Part shown: piece by piece, positions 1,105-7,970 of the stretch | Numbering within the stretch: position 1 is the stretch's first letter | Layout of the letters: every line of letters begins with the position of its first letter | Source: Sulfuricella denitrificans | GTDB lineage: Bacteria; Pseudomonadota; Gammaproteobacteria; Burkholderiales; Sulfuricellaceae | Length of the DNA: 59,608 bases | Assembly: GCA_002632355.1 (NCBI GenBank) | Contig: NSJJ01000019.1 | Coordinates: forward strand, 1 to 59,608 | Direction of reading: 5' to 3' | Notes under the pieces: generated by a model | What the model was told of the DNA's origin: nothing | Database searches by the model: none | What the model saw: the letters and a program-made list of their open reading frames with translations, nothing else | Made by a program: the position numbers and the translations under genes

Positions 1105-4100
1105 ATGGTCCTGCGTGGCCCGCACCGCCCCGATTTTCTCCTCAACGAAACCCTGCCGGATATTCTCGAAGCCACTGCCGCGCGCCTGCCGGACAAGACG
1201 GCGCTGGAGTTCGGCGAGCATGCCCTGAGCTACGCGCAACTGAATGCGCTGGCGGACCGGGTGGCGAGCGCCCTGATCGGGCTGGGTGTGCGCAGTGGGC
1301 AGCGGCTGGGCCTGTGGCTGCCGCGCGGGCTGGACCTGCTCGTGGCCCAGGCGGGAATCTCCAAGGCGGGCGCGGCCTGGCTGCCTTTTGATGCGGATAC
1401 GCCGGTAGCCAGGATCGAGGTCTGCCTCGATGACGCTGGCAGTCCGGGCCTGCTGACCTGCCGCGCGCTGCTGCCGCTGCTGGAAGCGTTCGCCCGGCCG
1501 GTGTGGGCGCTGGAAGACCTGCTCGAAGCCGCGCCCGCCGGTGAGCCTCTGGCGCGGCGGGATGCGGATTTCACGCCGGACAGCCCGGCCTATGTGATCT
1601 ACACTTCCGGCTCCACCGGCAAACCCAAGGGCATCGAGGTCAGCCAGCGCAGCATCACCCATTTCCTGCGCAGCGAGAACGCAGTGCTGGGCGTGCGCGC
1701 CGAAGACCGGGTGTACCAGGGCTTCTCGGTGGCCTTCGACATGTCCTTCGAGGAAATCTGGATTTCCTATCTGGCCGGGGCCACGCTGTGGCTGGCGCCG
1801 CGCCATGTGGTGGGCGATCCGCACGCGCTGCCGGAGGTGCTCGAAACCAACCGCATCAGCGTGCTGCACGCCGTGCCCACGCTGCTCGCGCTGTTTCCGC
1901 GCGACGTGGCCGGGCTGCGCCTGATCAATCTGGGCGGCGAGATGTGCCCGCAGGCGCTGGTCGAGCGCTGGGCCACGCCGCAGCGGCAACTCTTCAATAC
2001 TTACGGCCCGACTGAAGCCACGGTCTCGGCCAGCCTGGCCGAACTGCATCGCGGCGAACCGGTAACCATCGGCAAGCCGCTGCCCAATTACGGCCTGCTG
2101 GTGGTGGATGGAGAACTCAATCAATTGCCGCCGGGCGAGACCGGCGAGCTGTGCATCATCGGCCCCGGCGTGGCACAGGGCTATCTGGGCCGTCCCGACC
2201 TCACGGCTGAAAAATTTGTCCCCAATCCCTATGCCGTGGGCGAGCATGAAGCCCGGTTGTACCATACCGGCGACCTGGCGCGCATCGATGCCTCCGGCAA
2301 CGTGCAATGCCTGGGGCGGGTGGATGACCAGGTAAAAATCCGCGGTTTTCGCGTCGAATTGGGCGAGATCGAGGCCGTGCTCGCCAAAGAACCTGGCGTG
2401 GGCACGGCGGCGGTGGTGATCAGGGAGCTGGGCGGCGTGGAGCAGCTCGTCGCCTGCTACGTCGCCGAGACTGGTGCCGCGCCAAAGGCAGCCGGGTTGC
2501 GCATGTCCCTTGCTGCGCAGTTGCCGCCCTACATGGTGCCGGCACACTTCGAGGCAGCGCAGGTGCTTCCTCGCCTGACCTCCGGCAAGGTCGACCGCAA
2601 GGCGCTGCGGTTGCTGCCACTGATGGTGACGATTACTGCCGCCGAGGGTGAATCGGACATCCCCGAAGGCAACGCAGAGGAGGCCCTGTTCGAGGCATTG
2701 GGACATCTCTTTCCGGGGCAGGCGCTGTTGCGCGGGGCGGATTTCTTTGGCGATCTCGGCGGCCATTCCCTGCTCGCGGCCAGGCTGGTATCGCTGCTGC
2801 GCGCCGACCCGCGCTTTGCCAGCGTGACGGTGCACGACATTTACTGCGAGCGCAGCCTGGGCGCAATCGCAACAGTTCTGGCGCAAAAAGAGCTCTCCGT
2901 TCCGGAAGGAGAGGTCGCCCCGGAAATTGTGGAAACGCCCAGGCTGCGCCGCGTGCTGTGCAGCCTGGCGCAGGCCGCCACGCTGCCGCCGCTGGTATGC
3001 CTGAAGATGGCGCAATGGCTGTCGCCCTTCTTTACCTATCATTATTTCACCGGCGACGAGGGCGACAGCATGTGGCGCGCGATCCTCGCCGCGCTGCTGG
3101 TTTATCTGCTCGCCAATCTCGGCAGTTTTTTGTTCGCCATCGTCGCCAAGTGGCTGGTGCTCGGCCGGGCCCAGGCGGGACGCTACCCCCTGTGGGGCGT
3201 GATGTACTTCCGCTGGTGGCTGGCGGACCGGATTGCGGAAGTGCCGCCGCGCCATCTGCTCTCCGGCTCGTCGCTCAATGCGTTGTATCTTCGCGCCCTG
3301 GGGGCGAAGATCGGCAGGGATACGATCATCGGCGCATTGTCCATCCGGGCACCCGACCTGCTGTGCATTGGCGATGGCGTCTCGATCGGTTCCTCGGTCA
3401 ATCTGGAGAATGCCCGCGTCGAGCGCGGCGAACTGGTCCTTGGGCCAATCAATATCGGCAACGAAGCCGTGGTGGATTCCTACGCGGTGATGGAAGGCGA
3501 TAGCGCAATCGGGGATTACGGCCAGCTCGGCGGGCTGTCTTCGCTGGCGGCCGGGCAGCAGGTGCCGGCTGGCGAGGTGTGGGAGGGGGCTCCGTCGCGT
3601 TTTTCACGGCGGGCGGAGATTGCCAGCCGCAGGCCGCGTCCGCATGTGTCCGCCAATCGCGCTGCGTGGGAAGCCCTGTTCTACTTTTTTGGTGCCGGTC
3701 TGGTCGCCGTGGTGTTTTTCCTGCCGGTGTTCCCCAGCTTCATCCTCATCGACTGGCTGGACGTGCGCTGGCTGAAAGAAGTCGATGCCATGCGCTCGCC
3801 CTTGAACGCCTTCTTCACCTATCTGCTGCTGTCGATTCCAGCCAGCGCGGTGCTGGTGCTGGCCACCGTGCTGGCCTCGGCCGGTTTCCGCTGGCTGGTG
3901 CTGCCGCGTCTCAAGGCCGGTTCGTGGCCGGTCCATGGCAGGGTGTATTTCAGCAAATGGCTCGGCAACCAGATCCAGGAGGCCAGCCTGTTCGTTCTGC
4001 ACGGGCTGTATGCCACGGTGTATGCGCCGTGGTGGTACCGCCTGCTCGGCGCCCGGGTCGGGCGCGGCACCGAGATTTCCACCGCTCTGGGCGTGGTGCC

Positions 4101-5088
4101 GGACATGCTCACCATCGGCGCCGACAGCTTCGTGGCGGACGGCGTGATGCTCGGCGACGAGCGCATCGAGGGCGGCTGGATGCACCTGCGCCCTACGCTC
4201 ATCGGCGATCGCAGTTTCCTCGGCAACGGCGCCTTTGTGCCGGACGGCAGCGTGCTGCCCGACGACGTGCTGATCGGCGTGCAGTCCAGGGTGCCGGAAA
4301 ACGCGCGCATGCATTCCGGCGACACCTGGGTCGGCAACCCGCCCATCATCCTGCCGGCGCGCGAGCAGTTCGAGGGCTTCGATCCGGCGCTCACCTTCCA
4401 TCCCAGCCTGCCGCGGCGCCTGAGCCGGGGACTGGTCGAAGGCCTGCGCATCGTGATGCCGATGGCGGTGGTGATCGCGGTGGGCTATCTCACCGTGGCG
4501 CTGGTGATGCCGCTGGCCGCGGCCGGGCGCTTCGTGGATACCGCACTGGCGCTGGCGCTGGCGGGCTTTCTCTACGGCGCGGGCTCTTTCCTGTTCGTGG
4601 TGCTCATCAAGTGGCTCGTCATCGGCCGCTACCGGCCCCGCTCGGCGCCGATGTGGACGCCCTTCGTGTGGGCGAGCGAGGCGGTGACCAATCTCTACGA
4701 ATCCATCGCCGTGCCCAATTTCGTGGACTTTCTGCGCGGCACGCCGATGCTGCCGCCCTGCATGCGCCTGCTCGGCTGCAAGACTGGCAAGGGGGTCTAC
4801 ATGGACACCACCTTCGTCACCGAATTCGATTGCGTCAACATCGGCGACTATGCCGCGCTCAACGGCTGGTGCGGCCCGCAGACCCATCTGTTTGAGGACC
4901 GCATCATGAAAATCGGCGCGGTGCACATCGGGCGCGGCGTCACCGTCGGGCCGCGCAGCATCATTCTCTACAGTGCCCGCGTCGGCGACGGCGCTTCGCT
5001 CGGGCCGCTGACCCTGGTGCTCAAGGGCGAGGACATCCCGCCTGGATCGCGCTGGACCGGGTCGCCGGCGGAGCCATGGGTGAACTGA
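1105..5088 (+). CDS. Pls/PosA-type membrane non-ribosomal peptide synthetase (A-T-TM-LbH x3)
   Basis: The 1327-residue protein opens with an adenylation domain: A3 YTSGSTGKPKG near residue 165, A5 NTYGPTE, A7 YHTGDL, and A10 with SGKVDRKAL. A thiolation domain follows, with GGHSLL and the attachment serine at about residue 555. The rest has three pairs of hydrophobic segments (about 650-690, 855-935 and 1115-1175), each followed by a left-handed beta-helix domain of hexapeptide type. There is no condensation or thioesterase domain. This order and length match epsilon-poly-lysine synthetase (Pls) and the Pls/PosA family, which make isopeptide homopolymers or short amides at the membrane. The pocket starts FDMSFEE, with an acidic residue where a basic substrate would pair, which is only a hint. 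It overlaps the next gene by 13 bases. Confidence 0.88.
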   Translation: MVLRGPHRPDFLLNETLPDILEATAARLPDKTALEFGEHALSYAQLNALADRVASALIGLGVRSGQRLGLWLPRGLDLLVAQAGISKAGAAWLPFDADTPVARIEVCLDDAGSPGLLTCRALLPLLEAFARPVWALEDLLEAAPAGEPLARRDADFTPDSPAYVIYTSGSTGKPKGIEVSQRSITHFLRSENAVLGVRAEDRVYQGFSVAFDMSFEEIWISYLAGATLWLAPRHVVGDPHALPEVLETNRISVLHAVPTLLALFPRDVAGLRLINLGGEMCPQALVERWATPQRQLFNTYGPTEATVSASLAELHRGEPVTIGKPLPNYGLLVVDGELNQLPPGETGELCIIGPGVAQGYLGRPDLTAEKFVPNPYAVGEHEARLYHTGDLARIDASGNVQCLGRVDDQVKIRGFRVELGEIEAVLAKEPGVGTAAVVIRELGGVEQLVACYVAETGAAPKAAGLRMSLAAQLPPYMVPAHFEAAQVLPRLTSGKVDRKALRLLPLMVTITAAEGESDIPEGNAEEALFEALGHLFPGQALLRGADFFGDLGGHSLLAARLVSLLRADPRFASVTVHDIYCERSLGAIATVLAQKELSVPEGEVAPEIVETPRLRRVLCSLAQAATLPPLVCLKMAQWLSPFFTYHYFTGDEGDSMWRAILAALLVYLLANLGSFLFAIVAKWLVLGRAQAGRYPLWGVMYFRWWLADRIAEVPPRHLLSGSSLNALYLRALGAKIGRDTIIGALSIRAPDLLCIGDGVSIGSSVNLENARVERGELVLGPINIGNEAVVDSYAVMEGDSAIGDYGQLGGLSSLAAGQQVPAGEVWEGAPSRFSRRAEIASRRPRPHVSANRAAWEALFYFFGAGLVAVVFFLPVFPSFILIDWLDVRWLKEVDAMRSPLNAFFTYLLLSIPASAVLVLATVLASAGFRWLVLPRLKAGSWPVHGRVYFSKWLGNQIQEASLFVLHGLYATVYAPWWYRLLGARVGRGTEISTALGVVPDMLTIGADSFVADGVMLGDERIEGGWMHLRPTLIGDRSFLGNGAFVPDGSVLPDDVLIGVQSRVPENARMHSGDTWVGNPPIILPAREQFEGFDPALTFHPSLPRRLSRGLVEGLRIVMPMAVVIAVGYLTVALVMPLAAAGRFVDTALALALAGFLYGAGSFLFVVLIKWLVIGRYRPRSAPMWTPFVWASEAVTNLYESIAVPNFVDFLRGTPMLPPCMRLLGCKTGKGVYMDTTFVTEFDCVNIGDYAALNGWCGPQTHLFEDRIMKIGAVHIGRGVTVGPRSIILYSARVGDGASLGPLTLVLKGEDIPPGSRWTGSPAEPWVN

Positions 5089-5693
5089 GTCCGGTTATTT
5101 TGCTTCCCTCCCCCCCGCCTTCGACTGCGCTCAGGCAACGGTGGGGGGAGGGCAGCTTGCTGCGCGCGTTTCACGATAGGGGGCTTGCGCTCCTGCTGCT
5201 GCCCTTGCCCGCAGAAAGCTTGCGGGCGGCTGCCCGCCGTCTTGCGCGGCAGGTGCTGCGGGAGGTCATCGGCGGCTTGCTGGCGTTGCCCGCTGAGGCC
5301 GTGCCGCTAATTGAAGGGCCGCAGGGGCCGGTGCTGGAAGGCGCAGCCAGGGATATCCGCATCAGCCTGAGTTATGCCGGCGGCTGGGCCCTGATCGGGC
5401 TGGCCGAGGGGCGGGCGCTGGGCGTGGACCTGGTGCGGATCGAGCGTTTGCCGGAGGTCGAGGCGCTGGCCCGGCTTTATCTGCCCTCTGCCTCCAGGCA
5501 TGCCGTGCTCGATGCACCAGCCGGGATGCGGGATGCCCGCTTTGCGCAGGGCTGGGCGGAGATGGAAGCCCGCAGCAAATGCCTGGGTTTGCCGCTGGCG
5601 GAGATCAGTGCGGAGCGTGAGCTGATCCTGGAACGCTGTGAATTGATGGCTTGCGGGCAGGTCGAGGGCTACCGGATTGCTGTCGCTGTCTGA
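5076..5693 (+). CDS. 4'-phosphopantetheinyl transferase superfamily protein
   Basis: The 205-residue product carries the two signatures of the superfamily: GVDLVRIE near residue 113 (Mg/CoA binding Asp) and WAEMEARSKCLGLPL near residue 152 (W..xEAxxK motif). These enzymes load the pantetheine arm of coenzyme A onto carrier domains. Its overlap with the synthetase upstream suggests that the synthetase's thiolation domain is its target. The first 27 codons after the ATG run through a G/C-rich palindromic repeat and look unlike protein (PSPPPSTALRQRW). A TTG at 5157 in the same frame is therefore a possible alternative start. Function is well supported; the start is not. Confidence 0.82.
   Translation: MGELSPVILLPSPPPSTALRQRWGEGSLLRAFHDRGLALLLLPLPAESLRAAARRLARQVLREVIGGLLALPAEAVPLIEGPQGPVLEGAARDIRISLSYAGGWALIGLAEGRALGVDLVRIERLPEVEALARLYLPSASRHAVLDAPAGMRDARFAQGWAEMEARSKCLGLPLAEISAERELILERCELMACGQVEGYRIAVAV
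5106..5152. repeat. G/C-rich hairpin repeat inside the transferase 5' end
   Basis: Arms at 5106-5115 (CCCTCCCCCC) and 5143-5152 (GGGGGGAGGG) are exact complements. The loop holds TTCGACTGCGCTCAGG, a motif close to the one repeated at the very end of the window (near 59570 and 59594). Confidence 0.75.
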
Positions 5694-5709
5694 GCGGGCG
5701 CGGCGCTAA

Positions 5710-5786
5710 CCCCCCTTTCAACAGGGGGAAGGTTGCTTGCCTCTCCCCGATCTGCCCCTCCCCTGACAAGGGGAGGATGGGAGGGG
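5710..5786. repeat. Dispersed G/C-rich palindromic repeat
   Basis: It contains two small hairpins, CCCCCTTTCAACAGGGGG near 5710 and CCCCTGACAAGGGG near 5760, followed by GGATGGGAGGGG and a TTTAAA at 5795. It lies between the transferase and the convergent exporter gene, so it may end transcription from both sides. The core matches those at 898-990 and 33819-33884. Confidence 0.7.
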
Positions 5787-5795
5787 TTGGAAGGT

Positions 5796-6644
5796 TTAAA
5801 GCGTGGGCAGCCGGGGCGTGGTTCTCAGGCTGATGACGCCGCTCAGGACAATCAGGGCAATCGCCAGCCAGCTGCCGAGCGGCAAAATTTCCTGCCACAG
5901 CAGCACGCCCCACAGGCTGGCGAAAATCACCGTACTGTAGGCCAGGCTGCCGACCACCAGCGTATTCCCGGTGCGGTAGGCACGGGTCATGGCGAGTTGC
6001 GCCAGGGTGGCGGTGGTGCCCAGTGCCAGCAGGATGGCAAGGCGGGTCAGGGTGAGGGCGTGGAAGGTATGGAACAGCATCCAGATGCCGCCGCCCAGGG
6101 TGCTGAACAGGGTGAAGTAGAACACCACGCGCCATTCCGGCTCGCCCAGCGCACCGAGTTGCCTGACGTTGAGGTAGGCAATGCCGGCGAGAAATCCCGA
6201 AAACAGTCCGAGCAGACCGGCGCTGAGCTGTTCGGCGTGCAGGGTGGGGCGCAGCAGCAGGACCACGCCGGCAAAGCCCAGGATGATGGTGAAGATCAGC
6301 AAGGGGCGCGGCCCTTCCCTGAGCATCACCGTGGTGAACAAGGCCAGGAACAGCGGCGAGGTGTAGTTCAGGGTGATCGCCGTCGCCAGCGGCAGCGCGC
6401 TGATGGCGTGAAAGAACAGCATCAGCGCCACAAATCCGGAGAGGCCGCGCCAGAAGTGCATTTTCAAATTGGGCGTGGCGAGGCTCAGGCCCTGAAGTCT
6501 TATGATGAGGTAAATCACCAGCAGCCCGAACAGCGAGCGGTAAAACACCAGTTCCGCGCTGGAGAAGTATTGCGCCCCGAGTTTGACGAATACCCCCATG
6601 ATGCTGAACAGAATGCCGGCGACGATCATCCAGGAAGAGGTCAT
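5796..6644 (-). CDS. EamA/DMT-family membrane transporter
   Basis: About 282 residues, almost entirely hydrophobic, with roughly ten predicted membrane helices in two similar halves (EamA duplication). This is the layout of drug/metabolite exporters such as RhtA and YdcZ-like proteins. The ATG at 6644 (MTSSWMIVAGILF) was chosen because it puts the first helix at the N-terminus; a longer TTG form from 6680 adds 12 residues without hydrophobic character. The stop codon touches the repeat on its 3' side. The substrate cannot be read from the sequence. The gene is convergent with the transferase and could, speculatively, export a small amine or amino acid. Confidence 0.85.
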   Translation of the reverse strand: MTSSWMIVAGILFSIMGVFVKLGAQYFSSAELVFYRSLFGLLVIYLIIRLQGLSLATPNLKMHFWRGLSGFVALMLFFHAISALPLATAITLNYTSPLFLALFTTVMLREGPRPLLIFTIILGFAGVVLLLRPTLHAEQLSAGLLGLFSGFLAGIAYLNVRQLGALGEPEWRVVFYFTLFSTLGGGIWMLFHTFHALTLTRLAILLALGTTATLAQLAMTRAYRTGNTLVVGSLAYSTVIFASLWGVLLWQEILPLGSWLAIALIVLSGVISLRTTPRLPTL

Positions 6645-6655
6645 ATGTGAAGATC

Positions 6656-6796
6656 CAGCCGCGAAGACGCATAGGCGCAAAGAAAAGCAAGGTATGAGAA
6701 TAGTCTGTGCGTGCTTGAATCCACGCCAGGCGGATTAACATGGAATACCTTACGGGAATATCTTGGCGTCTTTGCGCCTTTGCGGTTCAATGGGTT
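6656..6796. repeat. Pair of inverted 'gcgcaaag' dispersed repeats
   Basis: The segment 6659-6686 (with GGCGCAAAG at 6674) and the segment 6766-6793 (TTGCGCCTTTGCGG) are related sequences in opposite orientation. They lie in the gap between nadC and the exporter, both on the minus strand. This motif type is a common dispersed repeat of proteobacterial genomes. No open reading frame is seen between the copies. Confidence 0.55.
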
Positions 6797-6801
6797 TTAT
6801 C

Positions 6802-7635
6802 TTACAGAACGATGCGCATGGACAGGTCGATGGCCTTGATGTCCTTGGTCAGGCTGCCGATGGAGATGCGGTCCACGCCGGTTTCGGCGATGGCGCGCAC
6901 GCTCTGCAGGGTAATGCCGCCGGAGGCTTCCAGCACGGCACGTTTGGTTGTGATGGCAACCGCCTGCCGCATGTCTGCGAGGCTGAAATTGTCGAGCAGG
7001 ATGAGTTTTGCGCCCGCCAAAAGCGCCTGTTCAAGTTCGTCCAGGCTTTCCACTTCGATCTGTACCGAAACGCCGGGCGGGGCAACGCGATGCGCCTGCG
7101 CCAGCACGGCGGCAATGCCGCCTGCGGCAAGGATATGGTTTTCCTTGATCAGGATGCCGTCGAACAGCCCTGTGCGCTGGTTGGTACCGCCACCGCTCCT
7201 GACGGCATATTTCTGTGCCAGCCTCAGGCCAGGAAGCGTCTTGCGCGTATCCAAAATTAGCGCGCCGGTGCCCTCGATGGCATCCACATAGCGGCGCGTG
7301 GCAGTGGCAGTGGCTGAGAGGGTTTGCAGAAAATTCAGGGCAGGGCGTTCAGCGGAGAGCAGGGCACGAGCGTTGCCCCTGATTTCGCACAGAACCTGAT
7401 TGGGCGAAATCAGGTCGCCTTCCCGTGCCAGCCATTTGATTTCGGCTTGCGGGTCGAGCTGACGAAAACACGCATCGAACCAGGGTATGCCGCACAGCAC
7501 GGTGGCTTCGCGGCAGATCACCGTGGCCCGTGCGGCGGTGCTGGCGGAAATGAGACTGGCGGTCAGGTCGCCGTCGCCGATATCCTCGGCCAGGGCAGTT
7601 GCGACGTTCCTTGCGATTTCTGCAGCCAGCTCCAT
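6802..7635 (-). CDS. nadC: Nicotinate-nucleotide pyrophosphorylase (quinolinate phosphoribosyltransferase)
   Basis: The enzyme converts quinolinate and PRPP to nicotinate mononucleotide, the committed step of de novo NAD synthesis. The 277-residue product has the family's usual length. It shows the substrate-binding TRKTLPGLR motif near residue 151, the KENH loop near 183, and the C-terminal barrel strands LILLDNF, EASGGI and ISIGSLTKD. These hold the residues that bind quinolinate and PRPP. It starts with ATG and has no co-directional neighbour overlapping it, so it is probably transcribed alone from the gap that also contains the candidate small RNA. Confidence 0.97.
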   Translation of the reverse strand: MELAAEIARNVATALAEDIGDGDLTASLISASTAARATVICREATVLCGIPWFDACFRQLDPQAEIKWLAREGDLISPNQVLCEIRGNARALLSAERPALNFLQTLSATATATRRYVDAIEGTGALILDTRKTLPGLRLAQKYAVRSGGGTNQRTGLFDGILIKENHILAAGGIAAVLAQAHRVAPPGVSVQIEVESLDELEQALLAGAKLILLDNFSLADMRQAVAITTKRAVLEASGGITLQSVRAIAETGVDRISIGSLTKDIKAIDLSMRIVL

Positions 7636-7764
7636 GCTTACTTCCCGTAAATGCCGATCCCGAAAAGCGGATTGTACCCAAGGATAATGATCCGATGTTG
7701 GGCGCGATTTGTTGGCTGGGCCGGGAATATGGGGATGCGATGCGGCCGGGCTGAATTTTTTGAT

Positions 7765-7793
7765 TTGAATTTGCCGGAAAACAGGCGTATAAA
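7765..7793 (+). promoter_or_regulatory. Sigma70-type promoter of the candidate small RNA
   Basis: TTGAAT at 7765-7770 and TATAAA at 7788-7793 are separated by exactly 17 bases. The predicted start is near 7800. No plus-strand gene follows within reach, which argues for a non-coding transcript. Confidence 0.55.
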
Positions 7794-7800
7794 ATAATTG

Positions 7801-7970
7801 TGGCTCGCGAACCGCACATCCGGGAAAGTAACCAGAAATGGGAGATGCTTATCGAAACTTCAACGGTAAATTATCTTTAAAGTAGCTACCCATGTCAGGG
7901 TTCGTGACTGACGATATCGGCATCCCTTAAGCCGATACATAATGCCGCTTTAATGCGGCATTATTATTTG
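7801..7970 (+). ncRNA. Candidate structured small RNA, about 165-170 nt
   Basis: This gap (7636-8021) holds no credible protein gene but does hold an ordered set of RNA signals on the plus strand. After a sigma70-type promoter, bases 7805-7813 (TCGCGAACC) can pair with 7899-7907 (GGTTCGTGA; one G-U pair), closing a domain of about 100 nt. A 7-bp hairpin follows at 7915-7921/7931-7937 (TATCGGC with GCCGATA). A 10-bp hairpin at 7939-7948/7955-7964 with a T/A-rich tail then ends the unit. I do not recognise an Rfam family. It runs opposite to both flanking genes. It could be a trans-acting small RNA, or antisense to the 3' end of the GGDEF gene. Confidence 0.45.
7939..7970 (+). terminator. Hairpin terminator of the candidate small RNA
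   Basis: A perfect 10-bp stem (ATAATGCCGC with GCGGCATTAT) and a 6-base loop are followed by TATTTG. The T run is short, so termination strength is uncertain. It could also serve the minus-strand GGDEF gene ending at 8022. Confidence 0.5.

Follow-up and report, generated by a model that had tools for sequence, protein, structure and literature searches.

A posA-like gene overlapped by a phosphopantetheinyl transferase gene in Sulfuricella denitrificans: a probable two-gene unit for δ-poly-L-ornithine

The 59,608-nucleotide stretch of Sulfuricella denitrificans DNA analyzed here (the window), which is the start of contig C20 in a 3.09-Mb genome, carries a two-gene unit that very probably makes a short polycation joined by isopeptide bonds, with δ-poly-L-ornithine as the likeliest product. 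The unit is composed of a posA-like gene for a 1327-amino-acid synthetase (positions 1105–5088) and a gene for a 205-amino-acid Sfp-type 4′-phosphopantetheinyl transferase (PPTase; 5076–5693), both on the + strand; by sequence tests, the 1327-residue protein is a predicted PosA-type δ-poly-L-ornithine synthetase. The original prediction held that polycation or amide production in such a Gram-negative would be of interest; a precedent for a polycation synthetase in a Gram-negative is PosA of Acinetobacter baumannii, published in 2023 (PMC10522769, cited throughout from part of its text; PDB 8G95–8G98). The enzyme kind is therefore already known, Gram-negatives included, and the window adds a new example of a described family, extending a recently characterized Gram-negative polycation synthetase to another lineage. 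The window protein shares with A. baumannii PosA its end-to-end architecture, 55% identity over the full length, ten pocket residues and a clade.

The posA-like open reading frame (ORF) starts with ATG and is intact, and its identity is supported by Pfam, NCBIfam and PDB matches. Pfam detects AMP-binding at residues 21–361 (E = 4.8e-76) and AMP-binding_C at residues 421–495; together with PDB matches and alignment, these define an adenylation (A) domain at residues about 1–502 (1105–2610, +). The Pfam PP-binding model gives no carrier-domain call, but a carrier domain is nevertheless supported by the conserved serine of a GGHS motif and by alignment to NRPS A-T chains. This residue, S555 (2767–2769, +), is Ser in 95/95 aligned rows (window included) and is the presumed phosphopantetheine site, and alignments to several A-T chains in the PDB extend to residues 560–601. 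The C-terminal polymerization domain (residues 622–1322; 2968–5070, +) is covered by the NCBIfam model TIGR02353 ("Pls/PosA family") from model position 2 to 695 of 695, scoring 768 bits where the curated cut-off is 423. Pfam also identifies a hexapeptide repeat at residues 1273–1304 and, below its cut-off, a weak β-helix match at residues 983–1061. Used alone as a PDB query, the terminal domain matches γ-carbonic-anhydrase and hexapeptide acyltransferase chains, which fits the left-handed β-helices predicted for it. No condensation or thioesterase domain was called in the protein by Pfam or NCBIfam. An A domain, a carrier domain and a putative membrane domain of about 730 residues (TIGR02353), with neither condensation nor thioesterase domain, is the Pls/PosA architecture, and on these matches the protein is a Pls/PosA family member, in agreement with the A-T-TM-LbH organization originally proposed.

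The evidence for the substrate comes from the A-domain pocket. The ten-letter code of the window enzyme, DMEHNGTVSK, is identical at all ten positions to that printed for A. baumannii PosA in PMC10522769, and the exact code is common to 46 of the 95 aligned rows, the window included. D212, M213 and E216, correctly read in the original prediction as the start of the pocket (codons at 1738–1752, +), align with the A. baumannii PosA residues Asp217, Met218 and Glu221, which are among those (D217, M218, E221, T304 and S313) assigned roles in the part of PMC10522769 consulted. The suggestion that an acidic pocket residue could accommodate a basic amino acid is supported. D212 and E216 supply the Asp and Glu found at pocket positions 1 and 3 of Pls and PosA enzymes, and the window pocket also contains the features of PosA, namely Met at position 2 together with Thr and Ser; the Ala of Pls at position 2 is absent, M213 occupying its place. 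The best PDB matches are the A. baumannii PosA A-domain entries 8g95 and 8g97 (E = 2e-156 and 7.6e-156); one sequence serves 8G95 and 8G96, with 8G97 and 8G98 next among the matches. Linear gramicidin synthase LgrA (6mfz) scores nearly as well (E = 1.9e-153, in two stretches and over a longer alignment), so the whole-chain score alone cannot give the substrate.

According to the portion of PMC10522769 available, A. baumannii PosA prefers L-ornithine to L-lysine by >160-fold in kcat/KM and makes polymers of 7–12 ornithines, whose δ linkage was assigned by dansyl labeling. The pocket and these properties point to ornithine (PosA type) rather than lysine as the likely substrate of the window enzyme, and short δ-linked poly-L-ornithine is its most likely product. 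With overall identity to A. baumannii PosA at 55%, the terminal domain could alter chain length or linkage.

The original prediction had likened the protein to poly-ε-lysine synthetase, a comparison that holds for family, length and domain order but probably not for substrate. Streptomyces Pls (7WEW) has the same A-T-terminal membrane domain arrangement and, in its pocket, Asp at position 1 and Glu at position 3 (PMC10522769, in part), its A domain is among the PDB matches, and A. baumannii PosA itself activates lysine weakly. The match to 7wew (ε-poly-lysine synthase A domain) is much weaker, however (E = 1.2e-78), A. baumannii PosA formed no polymer from lysine, and the lysine enzymes described in that article carry Ala, not Met, at the M218 position, where the window has M213. 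The window enzyme also falls in the PosA clade, apart from the Ala-type relative L131, whose branch is long and position unsure in a tree containing no verified Pls. That the window encodes an ε-poly-L-lysine synthetase (Pls proper) is thus very unlikely.

Polymerization of 2,4-diaminobutyrate, 2,3-diaminopropionate, β-lysine or D-ornithine by the window enzyme is also improbable, only slightly less so than a Pls assignment. Family members with several such products exist, but enzymes for poly-diaminopropionate (PDAP) and poly-diaminobutyrate (PDAB) have Phe at the M218 position and the reported β-lysine enzyme has the code DGESISVVNK (PMC10522769, part of the text). Among relatives in our set, Phe occupies position 2 in the diaminobutyrate-type Streptomyces locus L129, where the synthetase gene has diaminobutyrate transaminase and aspartate kinase genes next to it, and also in L130 and L133; L131 has Ala in its pocket, DAESIGTVVK. 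Because L129 and L131 thus carry the residues that PMC10522769 names, in the part consulted, for PDAP/PDAB and lysine enzymes, respectively, they provide a check on the pocket mapping. Unlike at L129, no diaminobutyrate supply gene occurs among the four identified neighbors in the window (kinase, PPTase, EamA transporter and nadC). D-Ornithine is used by A. baumannii PosA at about half the efficiency of L-ornithine (kcat/KM about two-fold apart; PMC10522769, in part), and the pocket by its sequence does not decide between the L- and D-forms. Poly-L-ornithine is nonetheless the preferred assignment.

Phylogenetic analysis used a 34-row tree (30 rows drawn from the 95 aligned, with four actinobacterial ones added) and a quicker 90-row tree that omitted five truncated rows from the 95. 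In the former, the window and A. baumannii PosA share an 18-row clade with support of 100/100, all 18 rows having D-M-E-H-N-G pockets; in the latter, the PosA grouping was recovered with 48 of the 90 rows and an SH-aLRT value of 100. The pocket groups with PosA and not with hydrophobic-substrate enzymes, the placement that the original prediction had named as contrary to it. Four of the five Bacteroidota rows in the 34-row tree have D-M-E-H-N-G pockets outside the PosA clade, so the pocket is wider in distribution than the clade. The rows nearest to the window are G015, from the same genus (87% identity), and G206, from a different family in the order (76%). Tree positions are unsure for the long or deep rows L131 and L020, and L130 has two overlapping open frames of similar length, the second of which was used (aligned at 39% identity).

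L020, from a genome of the same order (G299), encodes a deeper Pls/PosA relative (1429–5406) with the pocket DFECNGTASK and has a PPTase gene directly downstream (5403–6044). It grouped, at its unsure position, with the Phe-type actinobacterial enzymes and is possibly a poly-diaminobutyrate or poly-diaminopropionate synthetase. Another pocket type, DLEDIG/DLEDLG...K, occurs in 27 of the loci L028–L107, which represent the best 80 of 562 relatives. These alphaproteobacterial relatives (Methylobacterium, Azospirillum, Bosea and others) resemble the window protein in architecture, with 41–47% identity, and differ from it in pocket and in forming a separate clade. A DLED-type pocket is listed among the unique signatures in PMC10522769, in the part available.

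The PPTase ORF overlaps the posA-like ORF by 13 bases, consistent with the original description of the synthetase as having its own transferase gene. As a single sequence, the PPTase scored 22.3 bits against the Pfam ACPS model, under the cut-off of 25. A profile built from the window protein and 16 neighboring homologues (17 rows) found human AASDHPPT (E = 1.1e-7) and Bacillus Sfp (E = 1.5e-6) in the PDB, the matched entries being 2cg5 and 1qr0. G116, D118, W160, E164, A165 and K168 are invariant in the 17 rows and fit the PPTase signature, GxD and W...EA..K. These results identify the 205-residue protein, at the level of sequence family, as an Sfp-type PPTase. In a Pfam ACPS search of the S. 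denitrificans genome, only the window PPTase and an AcpS-type gene, located on contig C23, scored at E ≤ 0.001, and no condensation domain was found in the genome at the same threshold. Since the window PPTase is the sole one found besides the AcpS-type and no condensation domain was detected, it would be the obvious activator of the PosA-like protein.

The frequency of this arrangement was surveyed in the best 80 of 562 relatives, a selection in which close relatives are over-represented; 76 loci were readable, and four ended before the PPTase site. A same-strand PPTase gene, detected by profile, lay directly downstream in 25 of the 76, and one was found elsewhere nearby in three more. Among readable loci with a pocket identical to that of the window, the PPTase was directly downstream in 19/30 and absent there in 11/30; among those with DLED pockets, the figures were 2/26 and 24/26. 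Synthetase matches at E ≤ 1e-100 were also obtained in 17 of 300 sampled genomes of the order. In 14 of these 17, the PPTase gene adjoins the synthetase gene in eight, lies about 2 kb away in G189 and about 42 kb away in G028, and gave no match at E ≤ 0.01 in four. The posA gene of A. baumannii (locus L006) has no PPTase gene beside it and is described as a single-gene operon in the part of PMC10522769 consulted, in contrast to the overlapped pair in the window. These counts indicate that the pairing of posA and PPTase genes is common but not obligatory. The covered parts of PMC10522769, PMC13291983, PMC11342130 and PMC4361855 make no mention of posA/pls–PPTase adjacency (PMC4361855 has a passage on enrichment of the PPTase class), and with the literature covered in part, the recurrent pairing is possibly new. 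Holo-PosA from A. baumannii was made by adding Sfp (PMC10522769, in part); posA and its partner PPTase together are a small cassette of two genes, open to testing in a laboratory host with no Sfp supplied.

In the proposed pathway, the small PPTase would attach 4′-phosphopantetheine to the carrier-domain residue S555. The A domain would adenylate L-ornithine, with D212 binding the α-amine, E216, T299 and S308 binding the δ-amine, and M213 restricting side-chain length, and would then transfer the ornithine to the carrier thiol. Repeated attack on the thioester by the side-chain amine of ornithine would take place in the putatively membrane-embedded C-terminal domain, with its three predicted β-helix repeats, and give the isopeptide chain. 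A three-fold β-helix is not a new idea, since the published AlphaFold/RoseTTAFold model of A. baumannii PosA has three five-turn β-helices with approximate three-fold symmetry (PMC10522769, part of the text). From residue 600 on, 75 positions match the window at 97% identity or more in the 90-row set and 48 are invariant in the 34-row set, which includes the four actinobacterial relatives. The invariant positions in the 34 rows include 14 charged ones (D, E, K, R or H), 13 of which lie after residue 970. H1261, in the QTHLxEDR motif (4879–4902, +), is the only one of the ten window histidines from residue 600 on that is invariant (34/34); L131 lacks the E of this motif. From this conservation, we infer that aminolysis may occur at a single site including H1261, a candidate general base. 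A search of the available text of PMC10522769 for "histidine" and "catalytic" found no catalytic residue named for the terminal domain, and the candidate base of this uncharacterized polymerization domain is possibly new. The pattern of one invariant histidine and invariant charged residues concentrated after residue 970 makes the mechanism of isopeptide bond formation and of chain-length control testable by point mutants of the window enzyme.

An alternative to homopolymerization, in which the thioester is handed on to a partner so as to form an ornithine amide or to cap some other product, is suggested by a Pls/PosA-like module found in one hybrid PKS-NRPS-lipid cluster (PMC13291983, in part). 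It is the least probable of the alternatives and highly unlikely here, given that the genome has no condensation domain at the threshold above, no PKS or NRPS is present among the identified neighbors, and the next best match to the synthetase in the same genome is 28% identical and covers part of the A domain only. A homopolymer is therefore still favored, and its role as an antifungal, in competition or at the cell surface is a guess by analogy with A. baumannii.

Directly 5′ of the posA-like gene is an ORF for a CpxA-like sensor histidine kinase (71–859, +), whose N terminus is probably cut by the contig end and which is reported as context. Downstream of the PPTase gene, Pfam and NCBIfam identify an EamA transporter gene and nadC on the opposite strand. 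Neighbors were clustered over 83 loci (the window, L006, L007 and L028–L107, the last being the best 80 of 562 relatives). PPTase was the commonest clustered neighbor (20/83 loci; clustering loses some overlapping ORFs), and within the first eight clusters only PPTase recurred at a fixed place in loci with the window pocket. DLED-pocket loci have recurrent genes upstream in 12 and in seven loci and downstream in seven, presumably enoyl-ACP-reductase-like, histidine-phosphatase-like and chorismate-synthase-like, respectively. A same-strand CpxA-type kinase gene occurs within 1 kb upstream in only two of the 83 loci, the window and L094, and the kinase was rejected as a conserved posA partner. 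A more elaborate proposal holds that posA and PPTase form a portable, self-sufficient polycation module behind the kinase, that envelope stress controls a δ-poly-ornithine coat or weapon, and that the terminal domain has a single QTHL..DR active site near its C terminus despite three-fold pseudo-symmetry; the 2/83 count lowers its odds, and it is considered unlikely. An annotated sensor kinase is also found upstream of the synthetase in the Streptomyces locus L129, outside the 83 loci.

The synthetase gene is patchily distributed, occurring in 2 of 22 genomes of the family, the S. denitrificans genome included. Among the 17 matches in the order, G036 and G118 were matched by the A domain only and G092 covers the terminal domain only. 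In G221 (C1:1142761–1146342), the posA homologue is read in three separate pieces, still followed by a PPTase gene, and may be a broken gene. The G015 locus contains kinase, posA, PPTase, EamA and nadC genes, with flanks on both sides as in the window. In G017, of the same genus (L125, about 3467–7861), the kinase and EamA-nadC flanks are as in the window and the posA-PPTase slot holds other genes, presumably a small one of Spy type together with an istA/istB pair resembling that of IS21; no posA piece was found at the G017 site between the kinase and EamA-nadC. This comparison shows gain or loss of posA-PPTase at one site, with the direction undecided, and the patchy occurrence fits both transfer and loss. 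Third-position GC is 0.83 for posA, 0.84 for EamA, 0.71 for the kinase and 0.73 for nadC, and total GC is 0.67 for posA, 0.62–0.63 for EamA, kinase and nadC and 0.59 for the window; composition alone gives no origin.

The gap between the kinase and posA genes contains a hairpin (898–989) with 26-nucleotide arms that are 85% complementary and an RNA fold z-score of −6.96. A hairpin arm occurs on both sides of the posA-PPTase unit (906–924 and 5766–5784). The flanking hairpin was rejected as the boundary of a mobile unit: with two mismatches allowed, the arm is absent from the G015 region carrying the posA-PPTase genes, and the 19-base arm pattern is dispersed over 10 places in the genome at ≤1 mismatch, including the two that flank the unit. 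It is treated here as a putative dispersed intergenic palindromic repeat.
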